Positions 1,029 through 17,001 of a stretch of DNA of 64,000 bases are shown here, in pieces; positions within the stretch are counted from its first letter, which is position 1, and every line of letters starts with the position of its first letter. The stretch comes from Alphaproteobacteria bacterium (GTDB lineage: Bacteria; Pseudomonadota; Alphaproteobacteria; Thalassobaculales; Thalassobaculaceae): the NCBI GenBank assembly GCA_024742275.1, contig JANSYS010000007.1, positions 1 through 64,000 of the forward strand. Reading direction: 5' to 3'. The notes under the pieces were generated by a model. That model had not been told where the DNA came from. It searched no databases and saw only the letters and a program-made list of their open reading frames with translations. The position numbers and the translations under genes were made by a program.

Positions 1029-1039
1029 GGGACCATACC

Positions 1040-1250
1040 TTGCAAGCAACAGGTCACTATCGGCGAGCGATGTCCCGGAGCCCCTCGGCTGCGTTCGGAC
1101 TTGTGGCCCCGACTTTTGCGCGGGGTCTCCGGGACAATAAAGCCGCCCTCTATTGACCTATCTGAGTATGGGTCTTTGGGGACCCGACTCCCTGGCGGTC
1201 TCTTGAAGGTGGCCTGTACGTTCTTCCCTCGTATGGGTCTTCAAGTCTAG
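1040..1250 (-). ncRNA. Candidate IS110 bridge-RNA region / 5' non-coding end
   Basis: The non-coding stretch upstream of the IS110 transposase is where IS110-group elements encode the bridge RNA that guides target and donor choice. The sequence has strong structure. Bases 1071-1084 (TGTCCCGGAGCCCC) pair with 1122-1136 (GGGGTCTCCGGGACA) with one bulge and a loop of about 37 bases. GGGTC/GACCC can pair at 1170-1185. An 11-base direct repeat GTATGGGTCTT occurs at 1166-1176 and 1231-1241. CTTGAAG (1202-1208) is inverted as CTTCAAG nearby. The element boundary is not defined, so the RNA ends are guesses. Confidence 0.3.
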
Positions 1251-1311
1251 TTGATAGCTGCGTCCAGGGCTCAATTCGGGATTTGCCAGGGCCCCGTCTA
1301 GTGCAGACGGG

Positions 1312-2274
1312 TCAGCGCTGCAGTAGCGGGATCAGACCCTCGAGCTCAGTCATCTTTTCGTTGGTCTCTCTCACAAGTCGGCGGATTTCTTCGAACAGGT
1401 CGCGAGCCTGAGCCGCTGGATCCTCGCTTGAAGATCCGATCTCTAGGTCAATGGCGATCGGGCAGTGGTCCGAGAGCTTGAAGCGGTCCTCGTCAGCTTC
1501 GGTTATATCAACTTGGCGGAAGCTGTCCGGGACCAACCAAGCGGCAGCTTGTTCGTCCAAAATGATGTGGTCGATATAGTCTGGGTAGCGTCCTCCCAGG
1601 CAGCCACTTCGAAGTCCCTGGGTCACCCGGGACAGGACCAAGCCAGCAGGATCACCGTCGTTCCAGTCCGGCATAATGACGTCGCCATCGGAATCAAAGC
1701 GCCAATTGAAATCGCCGAGCACAACGAAAGGCACAGTCTCGGTAGAGCGCTGATCGATCCAGGTCTCCACCACCGGGACTTGCTGCCTCAGGGTTCGACA
1801 ATGGCGGTTTCTATCCAGATCTCCTTGAAAGCAGCTGCTTTTCAGGTGAACCGATAAGAGGCGTAGCGCCTGTCCGCCAACTTCGATGGTGATATCGGTG
1901 CCGCGGCGAACAGACCCGTCGAGTTCAAGTGCGACGTAATCCAGATCCGACGTAACCGTGATGCCACGCCGTACCGCGAAGCCTGTTCGCTGAGGATGGC
2001 GTCGGTCGGAAAAGAAGAACGCATAGACTGATGGGTCAAACACCCTTGCAGCGGCTTCGGGGCCGTCGACCTCCTGGAGCGCGATGACGTCCGCGTCCAA
2101 CTCCGTTGCAAGTGCGGAAAGCGCCTCGTAGTCAACATCCTCGCGCGCCACGCTACCCGTGCCGTTCTCGGCTCTCAGGTGTTCGATGTTCCATGTCGCG
2201 ATCCGAACACGTTCGGCGCTGGCTGTCCCGATCAACAACACAGTAAACGCCAGAGCCGTCAGTATCGTACGCAT
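1312..2274 (-). CDS. Secreted endonuclease/exonuclease/phosphatase-family protein
   Basis: A 320-residue protein with an N-terminal Sec signal peptide (MRTILTALAFTVLLIGTASA) and the EEP (DNase I-like) fold. Motifs in order are RIATWNIEHLR near 25, ALQEVDG near 65 (metal-binding Glu), LLSVHLKSSC near 138, VVLGDFNWRF near 185 (the D-x-N pair) and LSDHCPIAIDL near 270 (catalytic Asp-His). All active-site elements are present, so a periplasmic or secreted metal-dependent phosphodiesterase or nuclease is likely; the substrate cannot be told. A short acidic/helical tail follows. It is a single gene beside a degenerate stretch. Confidence 0.8.
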   Translation of the reverse strand: MRTILTALAFTVLLIGTASAERVRIATWNIEHLRAENGTGSVAREDVDYEALSALATELDADVIALQEVDGPEAAARVFDPSVYAFFFSDRRHPQRTGFAVRRGITVTSDLDYVALELDGSVRRGTDITIEVGGQALRLLSVHLKSSCFQGDLDRNRHCRTLRQQVPVVETWIDQRSTETVPFVVLGDFNWRFDSDGDVIMPDWNDGDPAGLVLSRVTQGLRSGCLGGRYPDYIDHIILDEQAAAWLVPDSFRQVDITEADEDRFKLSDHCPIAIDLEIGSSSEDPAAQARDLFEEIRRLVRETNEKMTELEGLIPLLQR

Positions 2275-2435
2275 CGCGTATCCTCCTCCGGAATTCAGTC
2301 ACCGATGACCAATCAATCTACGATCGGGAAAAAATAGCACGTGAATGTTACAATTGGTTGTAAATTTATGATCAACGTTTGCTGCGGCCGTTGAGGTTAT
2401 GAGTGCTGATCGGCTTCGTTCCCTAGCAGCGTTTC

Positions 2436-2800
2436 TTGATGCAGAGCGAAGAATTTTCTTACCCTGTCGGCGACTCTCAGGTCTGTCTCGATGGATTCGC
2501 GTTGCTAGGACGGCTCAATGCCGAAATCCAACCGCCGCACCTGAACCCGGATACTAAAAGACGCGCTAGCTCGCACGACTGCCATGTCGTCATCGAGGAG
2601 AACTCGGGAAGTTTTTGAGTCCTGTTTCTATGCACGGTCGGAAGACGCTAGCAATGGGAGCGGGCTCGGCATGGTCATCTGCCGCGATCAGCGCACTCCA
2701 TGAAAGACGATACCCAGGTCAGATCGACGCTGGGCCGCGGGTCTTTGTTCAGATTTTCCGCGTTCGCCGATGGCCGCGCCGCCCTCAAAGCGGCCAGAGC
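2436..2800 (+). pseudogene. Remnant of a sensor histidine kinase ATP-binding domain
   Basis: Fragments of a HATPase_c domain lie in successive frames. VVIEENSG (from an ATG at 2436) resembles the D/G1 box. A second frame gives FESCFYARSEDASNGSGLGM followed by VICRD, matching the F box and G2 box (FEPFF...GSGLGLVICRE). A third frame from 2700 gives VRSTLGRGSLFRFSA, the usual end of the domain (V.S..GRGS.F.F). At least two frameshifts and a stop separate the pieces, and no upstream H box or transmembrane part is seen. I read it as decayed kinase DNA, perhaps left from an insertion. The overall order of boxes makes chance unlikely. Confidence 0.55.
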
Positions 2801-2877
2801 CGGATGCCGCCCGCTGAGACAACGGGACCGCTATCCGCGCACCCTGGCTCACCAAATCGAACTTTCAATCGAGTCGG

Positions 2878-3699
2878 CTAGTGCCATCCCCACCAATCTC
2901 GCACTGCGCCTCCCATCACCCGGGACAAGTCATCGCCACTGAGCCAAGGCATCTCCTCGGTGAACATGGTCACGCACTGCCGCCAGGTACATGGCATCTT
3001 GGAGATATCGGTGCCCCAGAACATCCGGTCGGGACCGAATGCGTCGAAGACCTGTCGGACATAGGAACTCATGATCGGGAAGGGATAGCTCTCGCTGGAG
3101 TATCCCGGAATACCGGTGGCCTTCACGGCGACGTTCGGCAGTCTGGCGAGCTTCAACAGGTCGGGCATATGCGTCATCGCTGCATCGTCCTTGAGTGACG
3201 TGTTGCCCCCTTTGCCGCCGAGATGATCGATGCTCAACCTCAGGCCAGGATGCACGGTGGCGATTTCTCCCAGGATTTCAAACGATCCCGTCGCCAGAGT
3301 GGTCACGGGAATGTCGAACCGCTCGGCCGCGTCCCAGAACCAACCCAGTCCACCATCGTGTAGGCGTCGGCGGTTCTCGCTGTCTAGAAACATGCATCGC
3401 AGGCCAAGCATGCCCGGTTGCTCGCGCCAACGTTCCATCGCGGCCGTACTTTCTTGCGGCTGCCCAAGATCAATGGATCCGATGATCGCAAAGCGGCCCG
3501 GATAGTCCTGAACCGCGTTTATTGCGAGCTCAGTTGAACCTGGATCCCAGGAAGGTGGGTGGATCACCGCGGCATCGACACCGGCTTCATCCATCATGGA
3601 AATTGCTTCGGCGGCGCTGAACGAGGTGACCTGCCAATGGGCCATATTGCTAGGTAGCCCGGTACTCCAGAGGTGTATCTGCGCGTCAACGATTTGCAT
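2878..3699 (-). CDS. Amidohydrolase-family (TIM-barrel) metal-dependent hydrolase
   Basis: A 273-residue Amidohydro_2 protein. It opens MQIVDAQIHLW (the metal-binding D-x-H motif appears as DAQIHLW), followed by VDAAVIHPPSW near 42, LGLRCMFLD near 98, LRLSIDHLGG near 154 (conserved His) and MFWGTDISKMP near 225 (catalytic Asp). The family includes 2-pyrone-4,6-dicarboxylate hydrolase and related lactonases/decarboxylases; the substrate is not predictable here. The start is supported by a GGGGGAG ribosome-binding site nine bases before the ATG at 3699. No co-directional partner is close. Confidence 0.8.
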   Translation of the reverse strand: MQIVDAQIHLWSTGLPSNMAHWQVTSFSAAEAISMMDEAGVDAAVIHPPSWDPGSTELAINAVQDYPGRFAIIGSIDLGQPQESTAAMERWREQPGMLGLRCMFLDSENRRRLHDGGLGWFWDAAERFDIPVTTLATGSFEILGEIATVHPGLRLSIDHLGGKGGNTSLKDDAAMTHMPDLLKLARLPNVAVKATGIPGYSSESYPFPIMSSYVRQVFDAFGPDRMFWGTDISKMPCTWRQCVTMFTEEMPWLSGDDLSRVMGGAVRDWWGWH

Positions 3700-4063
3700 T
3701 CCGGCTCCCCCTTCGTTCCCCTGTCTGCACTGATACTCAGGTCCTTCGCATCGCCAGTGAATGCCTCAGCGATTGGCGTTGCCCGGCCTTACGACCTAGT
3801 TGGATAGCGGCCGACCCGCATGGGGTTTCGCGATCTCCTAGCGATCATGATTGTGCCATGCAGGGACGCCCTGCAGGAGTAGTTGAACTCGCTCGGGAAA
3901 GGGATACTCTGCTCACGGAGCTTCGGCTCCCGCCGACCGCTCGAGCGCCTAGCGGTCGTTAAATATGAAGCACCCCTCGGGGTGTCAGGTCCGGGCAAGC
4001 GCCGTCTATCGAGGCCAGACCGTAGGGGTCGAATATCGGTTGCCAGGAACCGGCTGGCATTGA
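3700..4063. other. Non-coding stretch with three consecutive hairpins
   Basis: No credible gene is seen here. Three stem-loops follow each other: GGAGC-TTCG-GCTCC at 3917-3930, GACCGCT/AGCGGTC at 3935-3957 and CACCCC/GGGGTG at 3971-3984. The first has a stable TTCG tetraloop. None is followed by a clear T-run, so they are not convincing rho-independent terminators; an RNA or a decayed mobile-element end is possible. Confidence 0.4.
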
Positions 4064-5056
4064 TCAGGAGAGGGCTGACTCTGATCGGTCGGCTTCTCCG
4101 GTCCTGTCCGAGAACCGTGTGAGAGCCGTTAGCCGCACATAGTGGGGTTCAAACGGACCCGAATAGATCTCTGTCTGGAGGTAGTGCTTCTCGGTCTCCA
4201 GATCAGCCTCTAGAACATCTCGGTACCAAGCCTTTGGATCACCATCGCTCCCATCGTTCCAACGATATCCACGAGCCTTCAGGAGATCCTTCAGGTCGTA
4301 GGGGCTATTCAGCGCCCAGATCCTAACGCTCGGCTGTCTCGCCGCATCCAGGAGCATTCCGAGCGTCGGCTTGTCAGTCGCCGGGAATGGTCTGGCGAGG
4401 ATCTCGAGCAGCATCTCGCAATCCGCGATCGCCCGGTGGCCGTCGTGGAACAGGCCAAAGCACATGCCGAGATACTCAAGCTTGGCACTTCGGATCCCGG
4501 CATCACCCCATGGGACTTCGGATAGCGAGCAGCCCCATGCACGCTTGGCGAAGATCGGATGAAGCCGCTCAGCAAACCGCCTGTCGAAGGCCGCGTTGTG
4601 GGCAATAACTATGACAGCCGTTTCAGCCAATCGCTCGACCGTAGCCAAATCGATCGAGTGACCGGCAACCATTTCGTCGGTGATGCCGGTCAACTGCGTC
4701 ACTTCGGGAGGGATTGGTCGGCCAGGGTCGTTGAACGACTGGTACCGCTCTATGACTTGGCAAACCTGGTCGCGCTCGTCGTATTCGAACGCCAGCATCG
4801 CCAACTCGATGATCTGATCGATGCGCGGATCCAGGCCGGTCGTTTCCGTGTCCAGGATGATGCCAAATTTGGTTTCGCCGACTGGCGTGGCGAACTCGTC
4901 CCGACTGACAACTCGGCGCAGAACCCGATAATCCGGGCTGGTTTCTAAGGCCGCAGCTAAAGATTCGTAGTCAGTGGGATTGCTCATCTCCTGATGCCCC
5001 AGCGGCTCTCTGTTCGTCGAGGTGATAGGGCCATGGCCAGAATTGGTCCAGGTCAC
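4064..5056 (-). CDS. DnaQ-like (DEDD) 3'-5' exonuclease
   Basis: A 330-residue protein (GTG start at 5056) with the DEDDh exonuclease fold: ExoI FGIILDTETTGLDPRIDQII near 62 (D-x-E), ExoII IVIAHNAAFDRRF near 150 and ExoIII GHRAIADCEMLLEIL near 207 (His...Asp). It resembles the epsilon proofreading subunit but carries a C-terminal part (KARGYRWNDG..., KAWYRDV, EKHYLQTEIY) found in stand-alone accessory exonucleases. The GTG overlaps the stop of the upstream XRE gene (GTGA), suggesting translational coupling; an internal ATG at 4987 would remove 23 residues but its AGGAG abuts the start. Role unknown: DNA/RNA processing or defence is possible. Confidence 0.8.
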   Translation of the reverse strand: MTWTNSGHGPITSTNREPLGHQEMSNPTDYESLAAALETSPDYRVLRRVVSRDEFATPVGETKFGIILDTETTGLDPRIDQIIELAMLAFEYDERDQVCQVIERYQSFNDPGRPIPPEVTQLTGITDEMVAGHSIDLATVERLAETAVIVIAHNAAFDRRFAERLHPIFAKRAWGCSLSEVPWGDAGIRSAKLEYLGMCFGLFHDGHRAIADCEMLLEILARPFPATDKPTLGMLLDAARQPSVRIWALNSPYDLKDLLKARGYRWNDGSDGDPKAWYRDVLEADLETEKHYLQTEIYSGPFEPHYVRLTALTRFSDRTGEADRSESALS

Positions 5057-5316
5057 TCAGAAGCTTTAGCGGGGACCAAAAGATTTCTATCAGGGCGTAG
5101 ACGGATTCCTTCGCCCTCACCATCAATGGCGGGGAGGAATTTTATCCCGTTCTCTTGAAGAACCCGCACGACGGCGTCCTTACTGGCAGTTCGCGAGCTC
5201 TGGTTCGCTTCAATCCGCACAACGGTGTTCAGTCCGATTTTGGCGCGCGATGCCAACTCGGGTCGTGACCAACCAAGCGCACTGCGAGCCGCCCTAATGA
5301 TTTCACCACTCGGCAT
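5053..5316 (-). CDS. XRE-family helix-turn-helix regulator
   Basis: An 87-residue protein with a HTH_3 domain filling the first 60 residues: MPSGEIIRAARSALGWSRPE, LASRAKIGLNTVVRIEAN, then KDAVVRVLQENGIKFLP. The tail (FLPAIDGEGEGIRLRP) is typical of short phage- or plasmid-type XRE proteins that autoregulate. Its stop overlaps the start of the downstream exonuclease by four bases, so the two are one transcription and probably one translation unit. Inverted and direct repeats 55-100 bases upstream are likely operators. Confidence 0.85.
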   Translation of the reverse strand: MPSGEIIRAARSALGWSRPELASRAKIGLNTVVRIEANQSSRTASKDAVVRVLQENGIKFLPAIDGEGEGIRLRPDRNLLVPAKASE

Positions 5317-5370
5317 GGCGCATGCTCACGCCTCATGGATTCTCGGTCCATACACATGACGCCGAAATCC

Positions 5371-5416
5371 TTAAATTGGGTTGATAAAGCCCATTTATGG
5401 TGATAAAAAACCCAAT
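5371..5416. promoter_or_regulatory. Candidate operator of the XRE-exonuclease pair
   Basis: ATTGGGTT (5375-5382) and AACCCAAT (5409-5416) form a perfect 8-base inverted repeat spaced by 26 bases. Between and within them TGATAAA occurs twice as a direct repeat (5382-5388 and 5401-5407). The site is AT-rich and lies just upstream of the leftward XRE gene, where an autorepressor would bind. The rest of the gap (5317-5680) is AT-rich with only weak, conflicting short frames. Confidence 0.4.
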
Positions 5417-5680
5417 ACTAGTTAACGAACCGCCTTCTCTTCGCAGCGGTTTTCCTAGTGAAGGGGGCCAAGTTTCCCGATTCTCGATGCGAGCCGCGTT
5501 CAGGCGCATACAGATAATCAATGTCGTGAAGGCAAGGATAATGCTCAGTGCAAAGGAAAAAATCCTTCTCGCAACCACGATCAGATCTGACTGTATCCAA
5601 GTTGATACCACCCTCACAGAGGAGCGGTTGATATCGGCCAACCCTGCTCAACAAACTCATAATGAGCGGGAATTCTAGCC

Positions 5681-6049
5681 GTGCCCGTCACTGCAACGAC
5701 AGCACGCGAGCGCCGCGCTCTCACATTCCTTCGTCGGTGGTTCGCCCCGAAGGAAAAGCGCCACTTCGGCACGGCCAACACTGTTGCGGACCTGCCGCCG
5801 CCACTTCGGGATCGATGCCACATTCTCCGATCTCCGGCACCGGATCTCACGCACCTGCCACAACTGGCCGCTCAAGTGCTGGACGATCTCATGACTGAGC
5901 GCGGCCTCGATGCCAGCTGGGCGAGCCCATTGTCGGGCCAGGAGCTCGATGCGATCGCCCAGGTGTGGAAGGCCGGATCCGTATGGGTTCTCCGGCGCCT
6001 AGTGGAGGGAGGGATGAATGTGCGGGAGCGGCTACAGCCCTGCCATTGA
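5681..6049 (+). CDS. Small hypothetical protein upstream of an exonuclease gene
   Basis: A 122-residue frame with a GTG start (weak GCGGGA nine bases ahead). It is Arg/Leu-rich (RERRALTFLRRWFAPKEKRH; LPQLAAQVLDDLMTERGLDA) and predicted mostly helical, with no motif I recognise, no signal peptide and no membrane segment. Its end overlaps only the unsupported N-terminal extension of the next frame; the next gene probably starts 48 bases after its stop. Alternative frames on both strands exist, so this is a tentative gene. Confidence 0.4.
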   Translation: MPVTATTARERRALTFLRRWFAPKEKRHFGTANTVADLPPPLRDRCHILRSPAPDLTHLPQLAAQVLDDLMTERGLDASWASPLSGQELDAIAQVWKAGSVWVLRRLVEGGMNVRERLQPCH

Positions 6050-6096
6050 GATCGAACTGCACTACCGACGAACCCATTCCCGATAAGCAGGGGCCA

Positions 6097-6867
6097 ATGA
6101 TGCAGCAATCGAGATCAAACAGAGAGACGCCGAGGTCAGCACCTAAGGGCAGGCAGCCCAGCGAAGTCGTGAGAACGATGGTCACTGTCGTGATCGCCCG
6201 AGATCAGGATTCTCCCACCCATTTGCATCCCATGGTTGGTGAGACCGGTTACCTCGGCGCCATCGCTCTTGCCACAGCGAATCTCCGGTTGGGTCAAGGA
6301 GATGCGAAACTTGATTTCAGCGAAATCTTCGGATTGAGCGCTAACGGCTTCTTCGCGCCGCACGAGGAAGCCATTTCTCTCGACAGGGAAATCGACCTAC
6401 TGCGTGTCGTAACTCGTTGGTTTGAAGACCTACCGTCACCACTGCTCCTGACCTGGAAAGGCGCTGAGTTCGACATTCCGTTCCTGCAATTTCGAGCGTT
6501 GGCCGCTAACACGCCCGCGAAATGGTTGCTGACAGCGTCTCAGCCGGACACCGAAGACCTTTTCACCACGGGCCACGTGGACCTCTGTCGGTATCTCCGA
6601 TTTCAGACGCTCTCGATGTCACTCGACCAAGCCCTGTGTGAGATCGGGTTTCAGCGTGACCCAACGATCCGGGGCCTCGCACGCCTGGAACTGACGGCAT
6701 CCGGCCTGCTGCTGCTCGCTGCCAACGCGTTCAGCCTTCGCGGGGCAATCAGCGAGAACGTGTTCAACAACTTTGTCGACTCTTTTCAAGTGCGGGCTCG
6801 CCAGTTCTCGGTCACACGGAGCCACTTTGGCTTCTATGCCGCGGACGAAGCCGCGAAGAACGGGTAG
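6097..6867 (+). CDS. Predicted 3'-5' exonuclease related to PolB exonuclease domain (DNA_pol_B_exo2-like)
   Basis: A 256-residue protein from the ATG at 6097, chosen because AGGGG stands 4-5 bases before it; a longer frame to 5965 would overlap the previous gene. Motifs: VTVVIARDQDSPT (degenerate first box), LLTWKGAEFDIPFLQFRALA near 110 (ExoII with catalytic Asp), HVDLCRYLRF near 150, and SLDQALCEIGF near 165, the pattern of predicted PolB-type 3'-5' exonucleases (PF10108). The first metal-binding D-x-E is not evident, so activity is uncertain. It is a second exonuclease within 2 kb of the DnaQ-like one. Confidence 0.6.
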   Translation: MMQQSRSNRETPRSAPKGRQPSEVVRTMVTVVIARDQDSPTHLHPMVGETGYLGAIALATANLRLGQGDAKLDFSEIFGLSANGFFAPHEEAISLDREIDLLRVVTRWFEDLPSPLLLTWKGAEFDIPFLQFRALAANTPAKWLLTASQPDTEDLFTTGHVDLCRYLRFQTLSMSLDQALCEIGFQRDPTIRGLARLELTASGLLLLAANAFSLRGAISENVFNNFVDSFQVRARQFSVTRSHFGFYAADEAAKNG

Positions 6868-6978
6868 CAGCAATGACTTGGCATTCCACTTCCTCGCTGA
6901 CGCCGCCGCGGCACTCCGAGATCGAAAACATGGTCCTCGCCATTCGATGCACGCCGAAAATGACGGGAGGGCCTAGCA

Positions 6979-7287
6979 ATGAGCTCGATTAATCCAAACC
7001 GGTTTCGCACCGAGATCGACGTGTTCCAGCGACTGCGTGCCGACCTCAAATCCATCGCCGCAGGTAAGGGACCGACAGAGGCTGACCTGGGAGCCCCGCC
7101 CATTGTTGACTTCTATGAGGTAACGACGCGTTCGCTGCCCGCCATAGCCGGTCAGATTGAGGGCCAACCGTTTGGTCCCTCAGACAACAGCGAAGCGTCT
7201 CTGCTCATCCTGTACGCATCCAAGCTCGGTTGGGTGAGAACGCGCTCAGGGTATTTCCGGCTTGGAGTGCCAGCGGCCTCCATATGA
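6979..7287 (+). CDS. DUF6634-like small protein, copy 1
   Basis: A 102-residue protein with a GGGAGG ribosome-binding site eight bases before the ATG. It shares a clear scaffold with the next gene: F..LRADLKSIAAGKGPTEAD, LGAPPIVDFY, LPAIAGQIEG, LGWVRTRSGYFRLG versus DLKAIREGAGPTEAEL, APLIDQF, PCLTGYIHGHP, HGWVRTMSRYYRLG. This layout (helical start, G-P-T-E-A-x-L-x-A-P, G-W-x-R-T-x-S-x-Y-x-R-L-G end) is that of DUF6634, as I recall it, common on alphaproteobacterial plasmids and islands. Function unknown. This copy lacks the TSDLWV segment kept in copy 2. Confidence 0.7.
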   Translation: MSSINPNRFRTEIDVFQRLRADLKSIAAGKGPTEADLGAPPIVDFYEVTTRSLPAIAGQIEGQPFGPSDNSEASLLILYASKLGWVRTRSGYFRLGVPAASI

Positions 7288-7318
7288 ACCGGCTTCACTC
7301 AATCTGACGGAGCATCCG

Positions 7319-7675
7319 ATGATCTTCCTGACCGCCCAAGGCCTGTCGCCATACATCGAATTGTACATCGATCGCTGCGACCGGTTGCTGTCGGACCTCA
7401 AGGCAATCCGGGAGGGCGCCGGGCCCACCGAGGCTGAACTGGCGGCAGCACCTTTGATCGATCAATTCAGCAAGGTGTATATGCCGGTCCCTTGCTTAAC
7501 CGGGTACATCCATGGGCATCCCGGGATTGCTGATGGCCCGGGTCGGACGTCGGATCTGTGGGTGGTGGCGCCGGACCATGGTTGGGTTCGGACCATGTCC
7601 AGGTACTACCGGCTGGGTGAGCCGATGGATGAGAGCGCCCGGCCCGAAGAGCTCTTAGCACACAAGGTTCACTGA
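7319..7675 (+). CDS. DUF6634-like small protein, copy 2
   Basis: A 118-residue protein; the ATG at 7319 is preceded by GGAG with six bases spacing, so the longer frame from 7262 is rejected. It contains LLSDLKAIREGAGPTEAELA, APLIDQF, PVPCLTGYIHGHP, TSDLWVVAPDHGWVRTMSRYYRLGEP cut into the same order as copy 1. The two are diverged tandem duplicates. Downstream comes a zinc-ribbon protein; together they form an uncharacterised rightward cluster. No catalytic motif is visible; a protein- or nucleic-acid-binding role is only a guess. Confidence 0.75.
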   Translation: MIFLTAQGLSPYIELYIDRCDRLLSDLKAIREGAGPTEAELAAAPLIDQFSKVYMPVPCLTGYIHGHPGIADGPGRTSDLWVVAPDHGWVRTMSRYYRLGEPMDESARPEELLAHKVH

Positions 7676-7763
7676 CCTTTCGATTTCCAATCGGTACACG
7701 CGGCACAAACGGCACCGCCGCTCGCCAAGCCATTGTGGGCAGAAAAGACCGGACGAAGCATGG

Positions 7764-8351
7764 ATGTCGGAGCTTTTGCGAAATGCCGCTCGATGCCTGC
7801 TATGCAGCGACATCATCGATAGCAGGCATACGCACGACTACGTCTCCTGTACCTGCGGCAACATCGCCGTCGATGGCGGGCCGTCGTACATACGGCTTGC
7901 TGGCGTAGGGCTCGACGACGCTTCTTACGAGCCTCTCCACGTATATCTGGACGGCGAACTTACTGCAGGCAGTCAGTTCATCCCGTTCCTTGATGGCGCG
8001 GTTTGGTGGGGCTGCGGCGATGGCTTGGCAGTGAATCGCCTGTTTGCTGCCTTGATGGCCGGAACGGTCCCGGCGCCAGATCAGCTGAGTGTGGCCGGTC
8101 AGCGACGGCTTGGATACCTCGCTGAGATCGTGCTGACGATGTCGCCGGAGCGGGGTCCCGAGAGGAAACTTCTGGATCTCGTTGCGAATCTTCGAGAGCG
8201 GCTCCGGTCGGAACCGGTCGAGGGAGCGGCGATGGATCAGCTATGGCTGCCAAGCCATGTCGCGGGACCAGATGAGAAAGCGACAGAGTGGGGTTTAGCG
8301 ATCGGACTCAGTGAGCGGTTTCGTAGTGCGTTCAACAAGAGAATTGAATGA
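7764..8351 (+). CDS. Small zinc-ribbon-like protein (DUF7695-like N terminus)
   Basis: A 195-residue protein. The first 45 residues carry NAARCLLCSDIIDSRHTHDY then VSCTCGNIAVDGGPSYIR: two Cys pairs (C-x2-C and C-x-C) plus His residues, resembling DUF7695 zinc ribbons. The middle is a variable acidic/hydrophobic part, and the C-terminal half is helical (LLDLVANLRERLRSEPVEG). No known enzyme motif. Its last 57 bases overlap, tail to tail, the 3' end of the gene on the other strand. The ATG has no strong ribosome-binding site. Confidence 0.6.
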   Translation: MSELLRNAARCLLCSDIIDSRHTHDYVSCTCGNIAVDGGPSYIRLAGVGLDDASYEPLHVYLDGELTAGSQFIPFLDGAVWWGCGDGLAVNRLFAALMAGTVPAPDQLSVAGQRRLGYLAEIVLTMSPERGPERKLLDLVANLRERLRSEPVEGAAMDQLWLPSHVAGPDEKATEWGLAIGLSERFRSAFNKRIE

Positions 8352-8735
8352 TCGGGAGCAAGAAGGGTCGGCCTCTGCGCGCCGTTTGGCGATGAGCAGC
8401 AACCCGTTCATCGCTTTCCGGCGGATACGGCGACGCAAGGCTTCATCGTTGACGAAGAGGCCGCTCGCGATCCCCAGCGGTGAGCTAATCCGCAAGCGCG
8501 TCATGTTCTCTGATCGCTCAGTGATCTGGCGCCGAAGCTGAACCGGATCGAGATTGAGTAGACGGTCCCATTCGTCGAAGACGGCGTACTGGTGGCCCAT
8601 AGAGCGCCATTCGGAGAGGACCCGGCGTGCGCGGTCGATGAGATCAGGGTCAGTGGCAATCTGGCGGGCGATGATACGATGGGTAAGCAGCTTGGCGCGG
8701 TCGTTGATGGTCTCAGCATTTGGGGGCGGCGACAT
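8295..8735 (-). CDS. Hypothetical helical protein downstream of island dut
   Basis: A 146-residue protein from the ATG at 8735 (AAGG seven bases ahead); a start at 8801 would add 22 basic residues. It reads NDRAKLLTHRIIARQIATDP, ARRVLSEWRSMG, FDEWDRLLNLDPVQLRRQIT, MTRLRISSPLG, LRRRIRRKAMNG. This Arg-rich helical pattern recurs in small alphaproteobacterial proteins beside HTH genes, sometimes annotated as antitoxin-like, but I cannot name a family with confidence. It lies about 100 bases after dut on the same strand and may be co-transcribed with the gin-dut operon. Confidence 0.55.
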   Translation of the reverse strand: MSPPPNAETINDRAKLLTHRIIARQIATDPDLIDRARRVLSEWRSMGHQYAVFDEWDRLLNLDPVQLRRQITERSENMTRLRISSPLGIASGLFVNDEALRRRIRRKAMNGLLLIAKRRAEADPSCSRSFNSLVERTTKPLTESDR

Positions 8736-8842
8736 GACTGCACCTTGTTCAGATTTCCCCCGCGTTCTCATGGACCTGTTTAACTTCTTCGAGCTGTTCA
8801 AGATTCTCGGCTGCGGTTTTCCCCTCTGCTCTTCGGCATGAT

Positions 8843-9292
8843 CTAATCTGTTCCAGTCGAACCAAAGCCGCCAGCGCCGCGTTCGGTGTCGCTCAGCGTT
8901 TCAGTTTCGACGATCTCTGGTTTCAGGACGGGCGCGATGACGGCCTGGGCTATCCGGTCGCCGTGGCTGATGGTGAAGGCCTCCCGTCCGGCGTTGAGCA
9001 ACGCGACCTGGACCGGACCGCGATAATCCTCGTCCACGGTACCGGGGCTGTTTGGCACCAGGAGGCCGTGCTTTGTCGCGAGGCCGGACCGGGGCCGGAT
9101 CTGCATCTCCGTTCCTGAGGGAAGCTCAACGGAGAACCCGATCGGGATGAGCGCGATACGACCAGGCTCGATTGTCACTGCACCGTTCGGAATGCATGCT
9201 CGAAGGTCCATCCCCGCTGCCCCCGCGGTCGCGTAGGACGGTAGGGGCAGGTCGGCATTTTCCGGGAGACGCTTGAACTTCAACACATTCAT
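8843..9292 (-). CDS. dut: dUTP diphosphatase (complete), coupled to the gin operon
   Basis: A 149-residue trimeric dUTPase that hydrolyses dUTP to dUMP and PPi. All five motifs are present: AGMDLRA near 26, RPRSGLA near 66, NSPGTVDEDYRG near 81-92 (catalytic Asp), GDRIAQAVIAPV near 110 and RGAGGFGSTG near 137. Its ATG overlaps the stop of ginD (ATGA, 9289-9292). The resident chromosomal dut next to coaBC is truncated at codon 92, so this copy is probably the only functional dUTPase in the region. It may be an island gene or a hybrid whose 3' part (8843-9016) is the original host end. N-terminal halves of the two copies are clearly diverged. Confidence 0.93.
   Translation of the reverse strand: MNVLKFKRLPENADLPLPSYATAGAAGMDLRACIPNGAVTIEPGRIALIPIGFSVELPSGTEMQIRPRSGLATKHGLLVPNSPGTVDEDYRGPVQVALLNAGREAFTISHGDRIAQAVIAPVLKPEIVETETLSDTERGAGGFGSTGTD
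9017..9046 (-). repeat. Candidate left attachment repeat (dut codon-92 segment)
   Basis: This 30-base segment begins ACCGCGATAATC and matches bases 15527-15556 at 24 of 30 positions, with ACCGCGATA and GTCCACGGT identical. It encodes the GTVDEDYRG part of the intact dut and lies in the same orientation as the right copy. GInts are known to be flanked by imperfect direct repeats. The similarity also reflects dut homology, so att function is inference. Confidence 0.4.
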
Positions 9293-9777
9293 TTCTGCCT
9301 CTTCGACCCGAGGGATACAATTCTATCGCCGTTGTCGGACATCGCCTCGATCTGGGCTTCCAGGTCTGCTATGCGCTTCTCCTGGGCCGCCTTCGTAGCC
9401 CGCCAATGCAATGCTTCCGCCGCTACCTCGGCTAGTGCCTTCTCGTAGAAGCGGATCGTGTCACGGCGGGCCTCGGCTGCATCGGGTTTGGCGGTCGCAA
9501 ACCGCTCCTTCTGGACGTGAAGCCAGTCCTGGACGATCTCGCGTAAGTCCGCATGGCGCGAGTTGCGAAGATACGCGGTGCTCACACCCGCCCGCCGCTG
9601 AACTTCCTCGAGGGACAGTCTGCGGGGCTTGTCGGGATCGTCTGGGTCACAGTAGTACCCGCGTTCGACGATCTCCGCCTCGATCATGCGCAACGTCGCG
9701 ATGATCGAGTTGCGTGCCTTGTTACTGCGATCCTTGTGGTATTGGGCGAGCGCGTCACCGGCCTTCCGCTCGCTCAT
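9289..9777 (-). CDS. ginD: GinD-like small helix-turn-helix protein
   Basis: A 162-residue protein whose ATG at 9777 overlaps the stop of the upstream recombinase (ATGA) and has GGAG seven bases ahead, so the longer frame to 9981 is rejected. Residues 35-60 contain LSLEEVQRRAGVSTAYLRNS, a helix-turn-helix of the kind in TetR/Tn554-TnpC-type proteins. The C-terminal half is a long helix ending in a coiled coil (EKRIADLEAQIEAMSDN). In GInts the fourth small protein is needed for integration and excision. Its stop overlaps the dut start by four bases. Confidence 0.7.
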   Translation of the reverse strand: MSERKAGDALAQYHKDRSNKARNSIIATLRMIEAEIVERGYYCDPDDPDKPRRLSLEEVQRRAGVSTAYLRNSRHADLREIVQDWLHVQKERFATAKPDAAEARRDTIRFYEKALAEVAAEALHWRATKAAQEKRIADLEAQIEAMSDNGDRIVSLGSKRQK

Positions 9778-11792
9778 GTAATAGCTCCAATGTACGCGAT
9801 CAGCTTGTCTCGGACCTGCTGCGGCAGCGGATCGAAGTGCCGCGGGTCGCAGTCTTTGAGGGCTAACCGCAGGCGATTGTCGTTCGCAAACGCGTCGATG
9901 GTTTTCGGGAAGGGAGCAAGATTGGCGAGGATTTGGCTCTGGTAAAAGGGCCGGGCACCAGCGTAGAGGCGGTCGATGCAAAGCATTTTGATCGCCTGCT
10001 CGACGGCCCGTTTTCGGTCTTGCGCTGCGGCGGCCGTTTCCAGACGGAAAATACAGCTTGCCGAACAGGCACCCAGGTCGCGGTTGCCCGTCACCTTCGA
10101 GCAGAGACCTTTTTGCTTGCTATCCGAGGTGCAGAAAACGCCGTCGCGAACTTTCTCGACATACGGCAGGATCGTCCGGAAGACTTCCGGATTATCAGCG
10201 CTCACGCCGAGCCGATGGGTTTTTCGTAACAGTTCCGACTTAGCAGCCCGAAGGGTTTCGGCAGCCGGGCCGCCGCATTCCTCGCTTTTCGCGATAATCT
10301 GCTTGCGGCGAACATCCTGAACTTCGCGGCGGACCTTGTCTGCGTCCAGACGAAACTCCCGATCAGATAGCATGTAGCCAAGTGTGATATCGATATCCGA
10401 GTGCCCCAGCACTGTGTAGAGAACTTCGCTGGCTCCTTCGAGGGCGAGGCCCGCAAGCCTCGACATAGTTTTTCTAAATCGGTGTGAACTGACGGTGCCA
10501 TCGAGATCGCACAGCGGCGTGCCGTCGAGGGTGTGGACAGCAACTCCGAAGCGCGGGATGAGATATTCAAGCGCCACCACACCGGTTGTCGTTCTGTTTC
10601 CGGGCACCCAAAGAAATTTTCCCTTATGTCCAAAGACTTTGAGCATCCGTTGCTGCCGCCAAATGGCTTCCACCGCTTGGTGGGGCAACGGCCAATGCCT
10701 CGTCGACCCCTTGGGGTCCTCGGATTCCTTGAACGTTGATCCTATCAATCCCTCCATGCCGTCGAATTGTATGAGTGGGTCCCGGCTCAAGGTCTGCATT
10801 TCCGAGACGCGCCCGGCGGTTGCCGTGTTAAGGATGATCGCGTTGGCCGCCTGACACAGCGATAGAAGGGATTTAACGCCAGACAATGTTTGGAGCGGCC
10901 AAGAAGAGAAACGTTGAGTTAGCTTTCTCTCTCCATCCACTTCAAATTGATAAGGAAAAACTAGACCTGGATAAAGATATTCACCCGACCATTTAGCAAT
11001 ACATTGATTTCTATAAGGCCGAACAAATCTACCTATAGTTTTTCTGCCTTTCTCATCGACTTCAATTGCCGAAATCTCAGCATAGCAAGCTTCCAGATCC
11101 TGCTGGATTTGGGACATGAAAAACGCGGCACGAAGAATCTCTGTAAAGGCTTCATCCGAGAACGGTCGAATGGGTACGCCCTCGTATTTCCGCGGTTCTA
11201 TGTCACCCGCTGGCCAGTCGTCAAAGAGTCCAGCGTTGAACAAGCCATTAAGCCTTTGAATGCATGAACCGAAAAAAGTTGGATGGGCTTCCCGAAGTTG
11301 GTCGAACGCTTCTGCAGAAAGTGACGAGAAGATCGGCAACCCATCTGGGCAAGTCGAACTCTTAATCAGTGATCGACCCGTCAAGACTGACGCATCCCGC
11401 GCGGCTCTGATAAGCAGGTCAGTGTGCTGGACCCAAACCTTCGCTTGGGGTGGCTTCAACCTCCACCTCGTTCCCGGAACAGTCTGTGTAAAATCCAGGA
11501 ACGCAATTCGCTTGAGGCGCCGGATCAGGTTCTCCGCGCGCGAATCATCCCGCCGCCATTCGCTGGGCAAGGCCTTCTTGAAGTCAACGGTTCGACGATT
11601 AGCAACATGGTTCGCTTCACTCACCATGGATGTTGGAATTACCCACACGTCATCGGCGACGATACATCCCTCGAATACCTTAAAGTCTGCGAGTTCCCCC
11701 CACGGCGACGTCCAAATCGAATCGATCGACGATAGGTTGGCCGAAAGGGAGCCACGGTGTTCGGCAAGGGCTGACTGATTGGACGATGTCAT
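9774..11792 (-). CDS. ginC: GinC-like large tyrosine recombinase with Cys-rich tail
   Basis: A 672-residue site-specific recombinase. The catalytic domain shows NTATAGRVSEMQTL near 315 (Arg I), SSHRFRKTMSRLAG near 430 (H-x-x-R) and TVLGHSDIDITLGYMLSD near 455 (His and nucleophilic Tyr), so the active site looks complete. After it comes a 200-residue extension with a Cys cluster (FC...GLC...GAC..SC, spacing about 9, 10 and 3), a likely zinc site. The ATG at 11792 has GGGAAG nearby and follows ginB by 28 bases. Third recombinase of the operon; expected to act jointly with GinA, GinB and GinD at the att sites. Confidence 0.75.
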   Translation of the reverse strand: MTSSNQSALAEHRGSLSANLSSIDSIWTSPWGELADFKVFEGCIVADDVWVIPTSMVSEANHVANRRTVDFKKALPSEWRRDDSRAENLIRRLKRIAFLDFTQTVPGTRWRLKPPQAKVWVQHTDLLIRAARDASVLTGRSLIKSSTCPDGLPIFSSLSAEAFDQLREAHPTFFGSCIQRLNGLFNAGLFDDWPAGDIEPRKYEGVPIRPFSDEAFTEILRAAFFMSQIQQDLEACYAEISAIEVDEKGRKTIGRFVRPYRNQCIAKWSGEYLYPGLVFPYQFEVDGERKLTQRFSSWPLQTLSGVKSLLSLCQAANAIILNTATAGRVSEMQTLSRDPLIQFDGMEGLIGSTFKESEDPKGSTRHWPLPHQAVEAIWRQQRMLKVFGHKGKFLWVPGNRTTTGVVALEYLIPRFGVAVHTLDGTPLCDLDGTVSSHRFRKTMSRLAGLALEGASEVLYTVLGHSDIDITLGYMLSDREFRLDADKVRREVQDVRRKQIIAKSEECGGPAAETLRAAKSELLRKTHRLGVSADNPEVFRTILPYVEKVRDGVFCTSDSKQKGLCSKVTGNRDLGACSASCIFRLETAAAAQDRKRAVEQAIKMLCIDRLYAGARPFYQSQILANLAPFPKTIDAFANDNRLRLALKDCDPRHFDPLPQQVRDKLIAYIGAIT

Positions 11793-11820: not shown

Positions 11821-14070
11821 TCAGAGGAAAGACGGGTTAGCTGCGATTTCCATCTCAAGCGCGCCAAGCTGGACTGCGTCGAAGATCTGCGATTCGCCTG
11901 ATCGAAGCATTTCTCGATGGGATGTGACGGCATGATCGAACCACGTCGCCAGATATCCGGATGCCTGATCCCGGATGATCTCAATACCGCGGAGTTCAAG
12001 AGTAAGACTACTCGTCAAGAAACGCCCGATTGGGATCACACGGCGCAATTCTAGCAACTCGGCCAACCGAACTGCGAGGGGGCCCAACGCTTCCGGCGTG
12101 AGTATTGCTAAGGGACATAGTAGACACCGTTGGACGCCGCACAAGGTGTCCATCACATGGTTCGGGGCAACATCTTTCGGTGGGTTAAATGGATCTGTGC
12201 ACCCCATTCCGTACCGACTTCTGAAGACGGAAGCCACCCGGTTTGTTTCCAGTGTTTTGCGATCCTCACACGTAAAGCCGGTACGCGACGTTGCAAGCCG
12301 CAGCACCGTCGGATCGACGGCATGTCCGGCCTCTAGTTCCTCAAATAGGGCTTGGCTCATGCGCCTGAATTGTTTGAATCGTTCCGCGATTTGGCGCTTC
12401 TGCCGCAGATAGTGACGCGTGGTCGAGATCGAGTAATGATTCAACGCCTGCTGGACGGCGAAGATGTTGGCGCCACTGGATGCGTAGACGAAAGTCGCAA
12501 AGCCGTCGCGGATGTCGCCGGGCGAAAATGCGTCGATGGCGTTGATCAACGATACTCTTCCCAACTTCTCAGCCAAGTCCTTTGCCTGCGATTTCAAGTT
12601 CATGTCGAAAGCTACTGAGACAGCCTTCGAAACGCCCAACAGACCGACGGCCTCATGACCGACACCCTTGGGATTGAAATAGATCCATGGGCTCCGCAGC
12701 TTGCGTTCAATTGTCGCCACCTGTGAACGAATCTCTACAGTTTGCGACTCGGCAAGAAGCCCCGCCCGGAGTTCTCTTAGAATACCGCGAAGATAGCGGG
12801 TGCGTTCGATCTGTGTCTTGATGACAGAATACGGTTGATAGCGGGATTCTTTGAGGCTTAGCGCTGAATGCAGTCGCCCAGTCTTTGGACGTTGCGCGTT
12901 TATCTCAACTGAAAGCTCGTCCTCAACATCGTCATCCGCGTTTGATTTTCCTTCCCTAACCGAAAGGATCACCACCGTACCTCTCTTGTCTTGTCCATGA
13001 TTCAACTGACCTGTTCGATCGGAAAACCAATCGCTGCACTCTTGGAAATTATTATCGACCACATTGATCGCTCGTGCCGTGTCCATCCAACCAGTATGGA
13101 ATGAGACAAGCGCATATGCCGCCATGCAGTCAGAACTCGAAGGTGCGCTTAGACGATACAGTATATTGGCGGAGGCAGCTGGACAGCCCACGCTTTCAGC
13201 TCGTTTTTTGATATTGCCGAGTGTGTTATTAATTCGAGTAATGTCAGCGCGTTCGACGTCCGAGCCGTACAACAAACGATGCCGGATTCGGCTGCGGAAC
13301 ATCACTGCCAAATTTCGCCATTTGTACCAAGCCATGTTTCTGACGCTCCCACGTCGTCCACCAGGTCGTCCCCTACGACCGACTTGCCCTGTAGTTCGCG
13401 GATCGACGCCCACCTCAAAAGCTCGTTCGGCGCGATGCATTTGCTTCAGGCCCTCATCAAAGTTGCGCTTTGCTGCGTTGTAGACGAGCTTGAGAGCTTT
13501 TGGATCGACATCTTCGTGCACGAGCGGCGCTTTGTGGTATTCAATCGTCGGCCAAAGCAACCTGGCGTTGTCCCACTCGTCGGCACCAGGCTCGCTCTTG
13601 CAGACTTGCACTGCGATCTTGTTGATAAAATTTAGAGAATTATGTTTTGCTCTCAGATCGCGGCCAATTTGTGCCAGCAGGAACCGCTTGAAGCCCTCGC
13701 CATCGGCGACGGTGAGGTCGGCGCAGCTTTGGATGTTCCGCCCAAGGTTTCGCTTTACCTCATCCAAGTAGCGGAAAAACTTGGTAAAGTCTAGGAGCGC
13801 CCTTGCGACCGTAGCATGTGACTTGCCGTAAAGCGTGGAGCGGAGTTCCGGCGCAATCTCTCGGATCAGTTGCGGTCGCCCGGTGATGCCGAGTCCTGAG
13901 TCCCCATCTTTATAGCGCATCAGATCGATTTGTCTGTAGCCGTCCAGCTCATGCCAATGATCCCAGACAAGTGGGTTCATGGGCGGTTGCGCGACGGATA
14001 CGGCATGAGCCATCGGTGCCGTTTCGACTTCAAACCGCTCGTCGTCAAGCGCCTTCTTGACCCGGCTCAT
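11821..14070 (-). CDS. ginB: GinB-like large tyrosine recombinase, divergent active site
   Basis: A 749-residue protein starting at the ATG at 14070, which overlaps the ginA stop (ATGA) and has GGAG seven bases before it; the 24-residue longer frame is rejected. The C-terminal recombinase fold is recognisable from FATFVYASSGANIFAVQQAL then NHYSISTTRHYLRQ (His and Tyr kept). By eye, the first Arg (TGWMDTA) and the His of H-x-x-R (PGDIRDGF) are not canonical. A Cys cluster follows the Tyr (GC...LCGVQRCLLCPLA). A basic Arg/Gly-rich stretch lies near residue 265. It may be a partner subunit that depends on GinA/GinC for full catalysis. Confidence 0.75.
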   Translation of the reverse strand: MSRVKKALDDERFEVETAPMAHAVSVAQPPMNPLVWDHWHELDGYRQIDLMRYKDGDSGLGITGRPQLIREIAPELRSTLYGKSHATVARALLDFTKFFRYLDEVKRNLGRNIQSCADLTVADGEGFKRFLLAQIGRDLRAKHNSLNFINKIAVQVCKSEPGADEWDNARLLWPTIEYHKAPLVHEDVDPKALKLVYNAAKRNFDEGLKQMHRAERAFEVGVDPRTTGQVGRRGRPGGRRGSVRNMAWYKWRNLAVMFRSRIRHRLLYGSDVERADITRINNTLGNIKKRAESVGCPAASANILYRLSAPSSSDCMAAYALVSFHTGWMDTARAINVVDNNFQECSDWFSDRTGQLNHGQDKRGTVVILSVREGKSNADDDVEDELSVEINAQRPKTGRLHSALSLKESRYQPYSVIKTQIERTRYLRGILRELRAGLLAESQTVEIRSQVATIERKLRSPWIYFNPKGVGHEAVGLLGVSKAVSVAFDMNLKSQAKDLAEKLGRVSLINAIDAFSPGDIRDGFATFVYASSGANIFAVQQALNHYSISTTRHYLRQKRQIAERFKQFRRMSQALFEELEAGHAVDPTVLRLATSRTGFTCEDRKTLETNRVASVFRSRYGMGCTDPFNPPKDVAPNHVMDTLCGVQRCLLCPLAILTPEALGPLAVRLAELLELRRVIPIGRFLTSSLTLELRGIEIIRDQASGYLATWFDHAVTSHREMLRSGESQIFDAVQLGALEMEIAANPSFL

Positions 14071-15425
14071 TTGGCATCTCCATCGAGAAATGCTGACCAG
14101 TTGCGAGTATGGATATTTCGGCCGACCTGTCCTTGTAGCCATCGGAGATAGCGTTCGGTTGTTTCCGATGACACGTGCCCCATGGTCGGACGTATAAACT
14201 GGTCGATCAGATCGCGGCCCATCGTGTCGATCAGCGAGAACGACGGCATGTGGTCATCCACATTGACGATGCGGTAATCGTCCGCAATCTGCGCCAATTC
14301 GGCGTGAAGCCGCTCAAGAAGCTCGTAGCATGCCCAAGCATGGCGACCCAGATGAGGTGACCAACCTGGAAAAGGGATCAACTCAGCGCGATTTTTCGCA
14401 CGTCGCAGTGTCCAGATTTCATGCAACCGGTTGTATGAATAGTGCGCTCCACTTTCAGGAGAGATGAAGAGTTGCTTCGGGGATGGCAACCCCGTGTTCT
14501 TAAGCTTGAAAGTCCTGATGGCGCGCTCGCGTTCCCTATATCGGTAGTCATTCAGAAGGAATAGGAAGTCTCGACTGATTGAGATCTTGCGCTTATTTCC
14601 AGACTTGTCAGGGTCGCCAATTCGGCGCCCACCTTTAGTGCCATAGCAGATTTCAACGTCGACGGTGAACGCGTCGGGCTTCACTTGTCGGTAGTCGTGC
14701 GGATTCGGGATCTGGCCCGCATGCAGCATCAAAAGCTCTTCCGCACGAAGACCAGTCTCGATGATCGTACGGCACATCAGATAGTTGGTAACGGCGTGGT
14801 CGCCACTATGCTGCGCCAGAATTCCGTCGAGCCAGTTCTCAATCTCCCGGCGCGTCGGGAGTTGCAGATCATCGGGATTTTCCCGCACCCGGCCAACCCG
14901 GCGAGATGTTATCCGAGATCTCTTGCCAGCTTTGGCCTGCAGGCGACCCAGAAGGTGGCTTGGAACCCCGTCCTGGGCGACTTCAAACCGATCCCGAAGG
15001 TCGTAATGCGCAGCGAAGGTCAAAAAGTCTCCAACCGTTAACATTCGTCGGTTGATGGTCGAGGCAGATAGAGGCCGCCTCTCCGACGAGTAGCTCCCTG
15101 TCTGCATCGATAATTGATATGTTTCAAGAAGTTGGTCGTATCGAACCTTTCTCCAATCGAGATGAAAACGCTCGCAGTAGGTGAAGAAATTTTCCAGATC
15201 GCGGCCGTACGATTTCATAGAGGTTTCAGCCGGACGTTTAGCCCGAGAGTGTTCACTCCGAGCTCCTAGCCCCGCCGCCCACCGTCCCATACCGCGCGCA
15301 ATTAAATAGTCGACTGCTTCATCGAGCAGCTTCCACTTCGCCGACCACAGGCTCGGGATGTGGGCAAGCTCGGGGATTCCTAGCTCATCGCATCTCGCCC
15401 GATCGGGCATGATCATGAACGTCAT
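14067..15425 (-). CDS. ginA: GinA-like tyrosine recombinase
   Basis: About 452 residues from the ATG at 15425; a TTG at 15458 would add 11 residues. It has an N-terminal SAM-like core-binding domain (LENFFTYCERFHLDW) and a catalytic domain with IIETGLRAEELLML (Arg I), WSPHLGRHAWACYEL (H-x-x-R) and PTMGHVSSETTERYLRWLQ (His, Tyr), all canonical. It is the promoter-proximal gene of the operon, starting about 70-100 bases inside the junction with the broken dut. Its stop is coupled to ginB by ATGA. As first gene and nearest to the end it fits GinA. Confidence 0.78.
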   Translation of the reverse strand: MTFMIMPDRARCDELGIPELAHIPSLWSAKWKLLDEAVDYLIARGMGRWAAGLGARSEHSRAKRPAETSMKSYGRDLENFFTYCERFHLDWRKVRYDQLLETYQLSMQTGSYSSERRPLSASTINRRMLTVGDFLTFAAHYDLRDRFEVAQDGVPSHLLGRLQAKAGKRSRITSRRVGRVRENPDDLQLPTRREIENWLDGILAQHSGDHAVTNYLMCRTIIETGLRAEELLMLHAGQIPNPHDYRQVKPDAFTVDVEICYGTKGGRRIGDPDKSGNKRKISISRDFLFLLNDYRYRERERAIRTFKLKNTGLPSPKQLFISPESGAHYSYNRLHEIWTLRRAKNRAELIPFPGWSPHLGRHAWACYELLERLHAELAQIADDYRIVNVDDHMPSFSLIDTMGRDLIDQFIRPTMGHVSSETTERYLRWLQGQVGRNIHTRNWSAFLDGDAK

Positions 15426-15469
15426 CAAGCAGCCAGCAGTCGATTTCGCCAAAAACAACTACCTATGTA

Positions 15470-15802
15470 TCATATTTTGTCAGCAGGCGCTCGCTTATGA
15501 AGCGGGTTATTGTTGGCACCAAAGGAACCGCGATAGTCGCTGTCCACGGTGCCCGGAGCGTTGACGCAGGCGATACCGGAGCGGAAGGCGAGCCCCGAAC
15601 GGGCCCGCACTTGAGCCTCGTAGCCGGACGGCAAAGCGATCGACAGGCCAGTCGGAATCGCGTGACGCTGCAACGGGTCGAGGGTGATCGGCGCGTCGAT
15701 CGCGGCCCGCAGGTCCATACCCGCGGCGCCATCGGTCTCGTAGGCTGGCAGCGGCAGATCGGCGGCGTTCGCCAGCCGAGTGACCCGCACCGGAACCGTC
15801 AT
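15470..15802 (-). pseudogene. dut: Resident dut gene truncated at codon 92 by the island
   Basis: The gene starts with an ATG overlapping the coaBC stop (ATGA, 15799-15802), the common coaBC-dut arrangement. It encodes normal dUTPase motifs AGMDLRA, RARSGLA and [12 protein letters not shown] up to Gly92 (base 15527), then 18 unrelated residues to a TGA. The motifs needed to complete the active site (GxRIAQ and the C-terminal RGxGGFGSTG arm) are missing, so the product cannot be a working dUTPase. Right border of the gin element. Confidence 0.88.
15527..15556 (-). repeat. Candidate right attachment repeat (dut codon-92 segment)
   Basis: This begins ACCGCGATAGTC and is 24/30 identical to 9017-9046 in the same orientation. 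Homology of this gene to dUTPase stops exactly at its left edge. The A-C-C at 15527-15529 is the complement of the Gly92 codon in this copy, as 9017-9019 is in the other. Just inside the element, CGCTT-ATG-AAGCG (15489-15502 region) is a small inverted repeat that could be a recombinase arm site. Confidence 0.45.
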
Positions 15803-17001
15803 GAAAAATGCTCCGCGATTCGGGCGGCGAGGCGTTTTCCGACTTCCGCCTTCGACATGGGCGGCCAATCCTCGGCGCCGTCCGCGGTGATCAGATGAAT
15901 TGTGTTGCTGTCGCCGCCGAAGGTGCCGGTGGCAGGCGACACATCGTTCGCCAGAATCCAGTCGCACCCCTTGCGAGCCCGTTTGGCGGTGGCGTGTTCC
16001 ACCACCGTCTCGGTCTCGGCGGCAAAGCCGACGACCAGGGCCGGGCGCTTCTCGCTCTTCTGCGCCAGGGTTTTCAGGATGTCCGGATTCTCGGTCATCT
16101 GCAGGATCGGAATACCGCCGTTCTCCTTCTTCAGCTTCTGGTCGGCCTCGGCGGCGACCCGCCAGTCGGCGACGGCGGCGGCACAGACCACGATATCGGC
16201 GGGCAACGCCGCCTCGCAGGCTGCCAGCATCTGCCGTGCGTTCTCGATCGGAACGGTCTTCACTCCGACCGGATCGGGTTCGCGGGTCGGACCGGCAACC
16301 AGCGTAACCTCGGCGCCCAGAGCCCGAAGCGCGGCGGCGATGGCGTGTCCCTGCTTGCCCGACGACCGGTTGGCGATATAGCGCACCGGGTCGATCGGCT
16401 CGTGGGTCGGGCCGCTGGTGACGATGGCCCGCCTGCCGGCGAGCGGCCCGCTGCTCTCGGCGAAATAGGTTTCCGCAGCGGCGACGATCTCCAACGGCTC
16501 GGCCATGCGCCCGAAGCCGAATTCGCCGCAGGCCATGTTGCCCTCATTCGGCCCGACAACGCGCACACCGCGTCCGGTCAGCGTCTCCAGGTTCGCCTTG
16601 GTGGCCGGATGCTCCCACATGCGGACGTTCATCGCCGGCGCGATCATCACGTCGGTATCGGTGGCCAACAGCAGGGTGGAGGCGAGGTCGCCGCAAAGCC
16701 CGTTCGCCATCTTCGCCATCAGATCGGCGGTGGCGGGGGCCACGACGATCAGGTCGGCGGAGCGCGAGAGCTGGATATGCCCCATCTCCGCCTCATCGGT
16801 GAGGTCGAAAAGGTCTGTATAGACCTTGTCTTCGGTCAGGGCCGACAACGAGAGCGGGGTGACGAACTGCTCGCCCGCCTTGGTCAGAACTCCGCGAACC
16901 GCCGCGCCACGCTCGCGCAAGCGGCGCGTCAGGTCGAGCGCCTTGTAGGCGGCGATACCGCCGCCGACGATCAGGAGGATGCGTCTGTTGCTCAGCGTCA
17001 T
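15799..17001 (-). CDS. coaBC: Bifunctional phosphopantothenoylcysteine decarboxylase / phosphopantothenate-cysteine ligase
   Basis: A 400-residue enzyme for two coenzyme A steps. The N-terminal CoaC flavoprotein domain has [20 protein letters not shown], then a conserved His-type region ([19 protein letters not shown]), [13 protein letters not shown] (substrate-binding PAMN..MW) and [13 protein letters not shown] (catalytic Cys in ACGE.G.GRM). The CoaB half has [18 protein letters not shown] followed by RSSGKQGHA, and [20 protein letters not shown] (K-x-K-K). Cytosolic housekeeping enzyme; coupled to the truncated dut. Confidence 0.95.

Follow-up and report, generated by a model that had tools for sequence, protein, structure and literature searches.

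The common view of integrating elements is that they leave intact, or restore, the gene that they enter, mostly at the end of that gene. The locus described here raises the question of how a cell can survive with an island lodged in the middle of dut, the gene for dUTPase, a DNA-protecting enzyme that bacteria need wholly or almost wholly; the abstract of PMC10815766 describes a full dut knock-out as lethal. The window, by which we mean the whole stretch of 64,000 nucleotides that was analysed, opens a contig (C28) of an alphaproteobacterial draft genome. On its minus strand coaBC is followed by a 5' part of dut, ginA, ginB, ginC, ginD and a complete dut, in that order (Table 1). The initial annotation had noticed the second, complete dut and offered two origins for it: a full cargo gene of the island, or a hybrid formed at codon 92 between a dut 5' half on the island and the 3' half of the host, with a mild preference for the hybrid. 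Our analysis supports the first origin, and the 3' half found on another contig, C13, contradicts the second.

Table 1. Features of the dut locus and the adjoining island in the window.
Feature	Coordinates	Strand	Remarks
Further island DNA (putative)	1..8842		Assigned to the island by its position between the contig end and the cargo dut
Complete cargo dut, intact	8843..9292	-	149 aa; Pfam dUTPase 5.8e-31; motifs I-V
ginD	9289..9777	-	Stop overlaps dut start (ATGA); start overlaps ginC stop (ATGA)
ginC	9774..11792	-	Large integrase-like protein, no Pfam match
ginB	11821..14142	-	Start uncertain; Phage_integrase match 24.2 bits, below the Pfam cut-off of 27.1
ginA	14067..15458	-	Longest frame; likely ATG start at 15425
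Gin-side junction in native dut codon 92	15520..15530		Match to same-genus dut ends at about 15527
Native dut 5' remnant	about 15527-15802	-	Motifs I-III; reads on into the island to a stop; directly behind coaBC
coaBC	15799..17001	-	Native upstream neighbour of dut; overlaps the dut start as ATGA

Alignment to the genes of close relatives shows the host dut to be cut at codon 92, with one piece at each end of the island. The 5' remnant matches residues 5-93 of the complete dut in a search of the window's own assembly, and it is 79% identical to the dut of the same-genus genome G026 up to the bases GACTATCGCGGT, where the match ends. The absence of any other dut 3' fragment to the left, which the initial annotation had reported, holds for the window but not for the genome: the 3' half lies outside the window on contig C13, from about 4877 (match 4876-5043, residues 92-147). 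There it has the island's AT-rich far end on one side and, on the other, the gene that natively follows dut, a ThiF-family gene at 5101-5853 that we term moeB, beyond which a further gene reads, by inspection rather than by search, as an FAD oxidoreductase. On the island side it is preceded by the AT-rich stretch, a RES/Xre pair and an AbiEii/AbiEi-like pair. From the bases GCGAAAT onwards this 3' remnant has 84% DNA identity to the dut of two same-genus genomes, G025 and G027, and 78% to that of G026. At the protein level, identity of the native pieces to same-genus dut reaches 85% for the 5' piece and 91% for the 3' piece. The two halves abut at codon 92 with zero codons missing, and the break separates motifs I-III from motifs IV-V. 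Because each piece has motifs missing, both are probably inactive.

The uninterrupted arrangement is preserved in relatives, where an unbroken, single-copy dut follows coaBC in all three same-genus genomes compared. In G026, dut has as its neighbours coaBC (91% amino acid identity) and moeB (91% over the 202 aa that precede the contig end), and it shows the ATGA overlap of coaBC and dut as well; in our genome coaBC and moeB stand on opposite sides of the island. In G025 and G027 coaBC is 89 and 88% identical and dut is unbroken, and no moeB match occurs within the 12-13 kb stretch fetched. Two family members (G028 and G029) have coaBC, dut and moeB. Among 46 other dut loci, comprising 17 of the genus and family and the 29 best matches of a class sample, the fetched stretch holds coaBC at 42, moeB at 23 and both at 22.

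The complete dut encodes an otherwise ordinary member of the homotrimeric dUTPases (Pfam PF00692). All five motifs, including the C-terminal motif V, are found in its product, using patterns that we take to be those of the family, and it matches solved dUTPases over its full length (best 8y1q, 2.4e-48, and 3mbq, 1.5e-45). The gene begins inside the ginD stop codon, just as the initial annotation had stated, and its start is preceded by AGAGG, a probable ribosome site. Scans of the ginD-dut junction (8600-9500) found no promoter-like and no terminator-like site, as expected for a gene within an operon. It is also the sole complete dUTPase gene found in the assembly. A search with the complete dut returned three dut places, and the Pfam dUTPase model, positive in 11 of 14 control genomes, returned the same three and no others; a model of the dimeric dUTPase gave no match in the assembly, with a weak control (one of 14 genomes, under the cut-off there). 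Within the limits of sequence evidence, these data support an island that supplies dUTPase from a second, ginD-coupled dut, and the cell probably keeps its dUTPase thanks to this spare copy.

The genes between the two copies form a complete ginABCD operon in the order and direction of a GInt; three of the products are tyrosine-recombinase-like and the fourth is a small protein. GinA, GinB, GinC and GinD are 38, 33, 32 and 34% identical to the proteins of an operon on a Microvirga plasmid and align more weakly with those of two further genomes. In four-row alignments, R238, H369, R372, H428 and Y437 of GinA and R328, H437, R440, H464 and Y473 of GinC are invariant, and by our own assignment these residues fit the catalytic set R, H, R, H, Y. 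Pfam matches are weak: PF00589 falls under the cut-off for GinA and GinB, PF02899 is just over it for GinA, and GinC and GinD have none. As in a GInt, the operon lies at the island end beside the target, with the likely ginA start just inside the junction; the cargo starts at the ginD stop codon; and the far end is AT-rich (C13:4731-4876, GC 0.418 vs 0.65 for host DNA, with 26 of 4805 host windows as low). GInts excise as circles, a step that requires all four gin genes, and each of their ends carries an imperfect direct repeat of 10-17 bases. No clear direct repeats were found at the two junctions here, and the best end match, an unproven one of 12 in 14 bases, lies inside both element ends. 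In front of ginA, at 15300-15900, no sigma-70-like promoter turned up in a scan of the minus strand. Taken as a whole, the locus is very probably the product of a GInt-type island that integrated at codon 92 of the host's single dut and carries a full dut as cargo. The Microvirga plasmid operon (L038 5807-13563) adjoins genes annotated as Kiwa KwaB-like and as a DNA methyltransferase.

The identity of cargo and target could be fortuitous. An element may carry dut for some other reason, such as nucleotide metabolism, as many phages do, and may have landed in dut by chance; the gene is indeed common on phages, with matches in 2311 of 50,697 phage records. Target replacement was likewise seen in none of six other GInts. 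In a limited control, in which the 2.3-2.5 kb beside ginA stood in for the true target and was compared with 4.9-8.4 kb behind ginD, these six gave no homologous pair at E 0.001; the corresponding comparison of the present element yields one (55% over 89 aa). We nevertheless judge a coincidence to be unlikely, given that the cargo dut lies right behind ginD with overlapping codons, and that the gene hit by the island is the same one of which the island holds the genome's only complete copy.

An island that ends on two contigs also calls for a close look at the assembly, a draft of 88 contigs with an estimated contamination of 2.46 and a single case. Bases 1-136 of the window, and bases 1-139 of the stretch of C13 that holds the far end (L004), are the end of a multi-copy IS, which is IS3-like by our own reading. 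Six right ends and five left ends of it were found in the assembly, and several contig breaks are accordingly due to this IS. A join of C28:1 and C13:1 by a single IS copy was considered and rejected: once the boundary of the IS had been set from an alignment of its 11 copies, the adjoining bases differ (AAC vs ATC), and the one 4-base match between the two flanks is displaced by 6 bases from that boundary. The two contig ends are thus not paired by a target duplication, and a gap between the contigs remains. The 15.5 kb and 4.9 kb on the two contigs therefore set a lower bound of about 20.4 kb on the size of the island, which may hold additional unplaced sequence. The two gene pairs near its far end (L004 643-4173 on C13), AbiEii with a DUF6088/AbiEi-like gene and an Xre-like gene with RES, look like toxin-antitoxin pairs, and such addiction-type content speaks for the proposed island. 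Elsewhere in the window, at 4064-5316, a small gene for what looks by eye like a helix-turn-helix protein is overlapped at its end by a gene for an exonuclease of the RNase_T type (Pfam 2.3e-17).

The fragmentation and estimated contamination of the assembly, and the repeated, unjoinable IS at the ends of both contigs, would also suit an artefact in which C13 or C28 was misassembled or came from another strain, the strain's own dut being normal. We consider this very improbable, since the two native pieces fit together at a single codon and each resembles dut of the same genus, an unbroken native dut is absent from the assembly, and the window's contig by itself already combines the cargo gene with a broken native 5' half.

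Least tenable is the hybrid origin, in which the element would have brought nothing but the gin genes together with the 5' half of a dut, and recombined at codon 92 with the host 3' half, for the native 3' half is found on C13 beside moeB. The identity of 24 bases in 30 at codon 92, to which the initial annotation had pointed, is reproduced (9017 vs 15527, plus strand) and fits a hybrid, but it amounts to the ordinary homology of motif III. Other stretches of the two dut genes also reach 24 in 30. When the same 30 bases were compared among 47 other dut genes (two of 49 gave no window), 425 of 1081 pairs, some of them between close relatives, had at least 24 identical bases, with a mean of 23.0, and the cargo dut reached at least 24 with 7 of the 47. 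A recombination site is unneeded to explain a match of this ordinary level in a conserved motif, and we rejected it as such. The 3' half of the complete gene has 50-55% protein identity to the three same-genus dut genes (51-52% for the 5' half) vs up to 91% for the piece on C13, and both its halves are 62% identical to the best whole-length match in the class (L063); no switch of identity at codon 92 is visible in these comparisons. Separate trees of the two halves, as the initial annotation had proposed, decide for neither origin. They were built from 89 and 55 columns, too few to decide, and forcing the cargo dut into the genus group was not rejected (p-AU 0.437 and 0.68), the forced tree of the 3' half even outscoring a quick free tree; by themselves they do not exclude a hybrid. 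The case for a full cargo gene is made by the existence of the third fragment, on C13, and not by the trees. It supports a complete dut that is, to judge from these comparisons, wholly island-borne.

For this island-borne gene we propose the following course. The island's own recombinases would have directed integration into codon 92 of dut, mid-frame and between motifs III and IV, leaving the native gene in two pieces, one per island end. A divergent, complete dut would have arrived as the first cargo gene, tied to the gin operon by the ATGA stop-start overlap. Since coaBC, the native dut and the gin operon all point the same way, transcription of the cargo dut together with gin is probable, be it from a gin promoter, as part of the coaBC-dut operon, or both, and its translation would be coupled to that of ginD. 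Because dUTPase is essential or nearly so, a cell would be expected to survive integration at this site only if the element carries dut. If the island excised precisely, the native gene would be whole again; loss of the cargo dut in any other way would be expected to harm the cell. The island may thus represent a target-replacing type, in which a recombinase operon has acquired, in full, the essential gene that serves as its attachment site, integrates mid-frame and takes over the enzyme, with island and cell depending on each other until precise excision. We favour this broader interpretation, with some reserve.

Elements that enter coding sequences and rebuild them are known; SXT in prfC and e14 in icd do so by supplying one end of the target at the junction. 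Like these, the present island enters a conserved protein-coding gene and host function is probably kept. Unlike them, it supplies a separate, distant whole gene, 6.2 kb inside, and both native halves are incomplete. GInts, as described in the sections of Bardaji et al. (2017; PMC5385486) covered here, target gene ends, intergenic regions, or the 5' end of a gene with an outward promoter, and complete inactivation of the target is thought unlikely. The present element shares with those descriptions the ginABCD order at one end by the target, insertion in a conserved gene, cargo that starts from the ginD stop and an AT-rich other end, but it cuts the frame mid-gene and its cargo holds a full copy of the target; these sections of PMC5385486 make no mention of a replacement copy. 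Several cooperating tyrosine recombinases and a specific target site are also features of SE elements (strand-biased circularizing integrative elements; PMC10214605) and of Tn554-type elements. In the covered part of PMC10214605, SE proteins cluster apart from GInt proteins, and the word dut is absent from the main text. Neither the portions of the GInt literature covered nor the six other GInts offered another instance of an interrupted core gene with a complete, coupled substitute, and our example is one case.

Searches for ginD followed by dut in other genomes, a check that the initial annotation had suggested, returned no second instance among the matches that were followed. With GinB as query there was none in 35 genomes of the order besides our own. 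In the class, GinB gave weak, short matches only, in 14 of 384 other genomes, and the GinC profile weak matches in 2 of 384. In the phylum, the GinC profile matched 4 of 397 others, two strongly and two weakly, and neither strong match has dut behind ginD. A genome_contigs scan with GinA returned six loci, each matching all four gin genes, none of which adds a new alphaproteobacterial case to that of Microvirga; scans of viral_contigs gave no match. Starting from dut, no gin gene lies near any of the 46 other loci within the fetched stretch, and none of five picked class genomes with more than one dut match shows, by coordinates only, a split gene plus a full one. One genome (G009) has a second dut piece that starts at the edge of a contig and shares 97% identity with the first. 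A class relative (G168, C76:26937-27349; L123, L126) has a complete dut and a second copy in two overlapping pieces that look frameshifted. Searches of the open-licence PMC literature, judged by title and the start of the abstract, gave nothing relevant on dut as a target or on whole-gene replacement, and a literature search on coding targets rebuilt from one end gave no paper on that subject.

If our interpretation is correct, the island would embody an alternative solution to the problem faced by integrating elements: an essential gene is broken mid-frame, and a full substitute is provided within the recombinase operon. Such a solution would open a wider range of sites to islands of this kind. 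It would also define a signature for searches, namely a core gene split across the ends of an island together with a distant full copy behind integrase genes. For the host, it would mean that a single step can exchange a core enzyme for its foreign counterpart.
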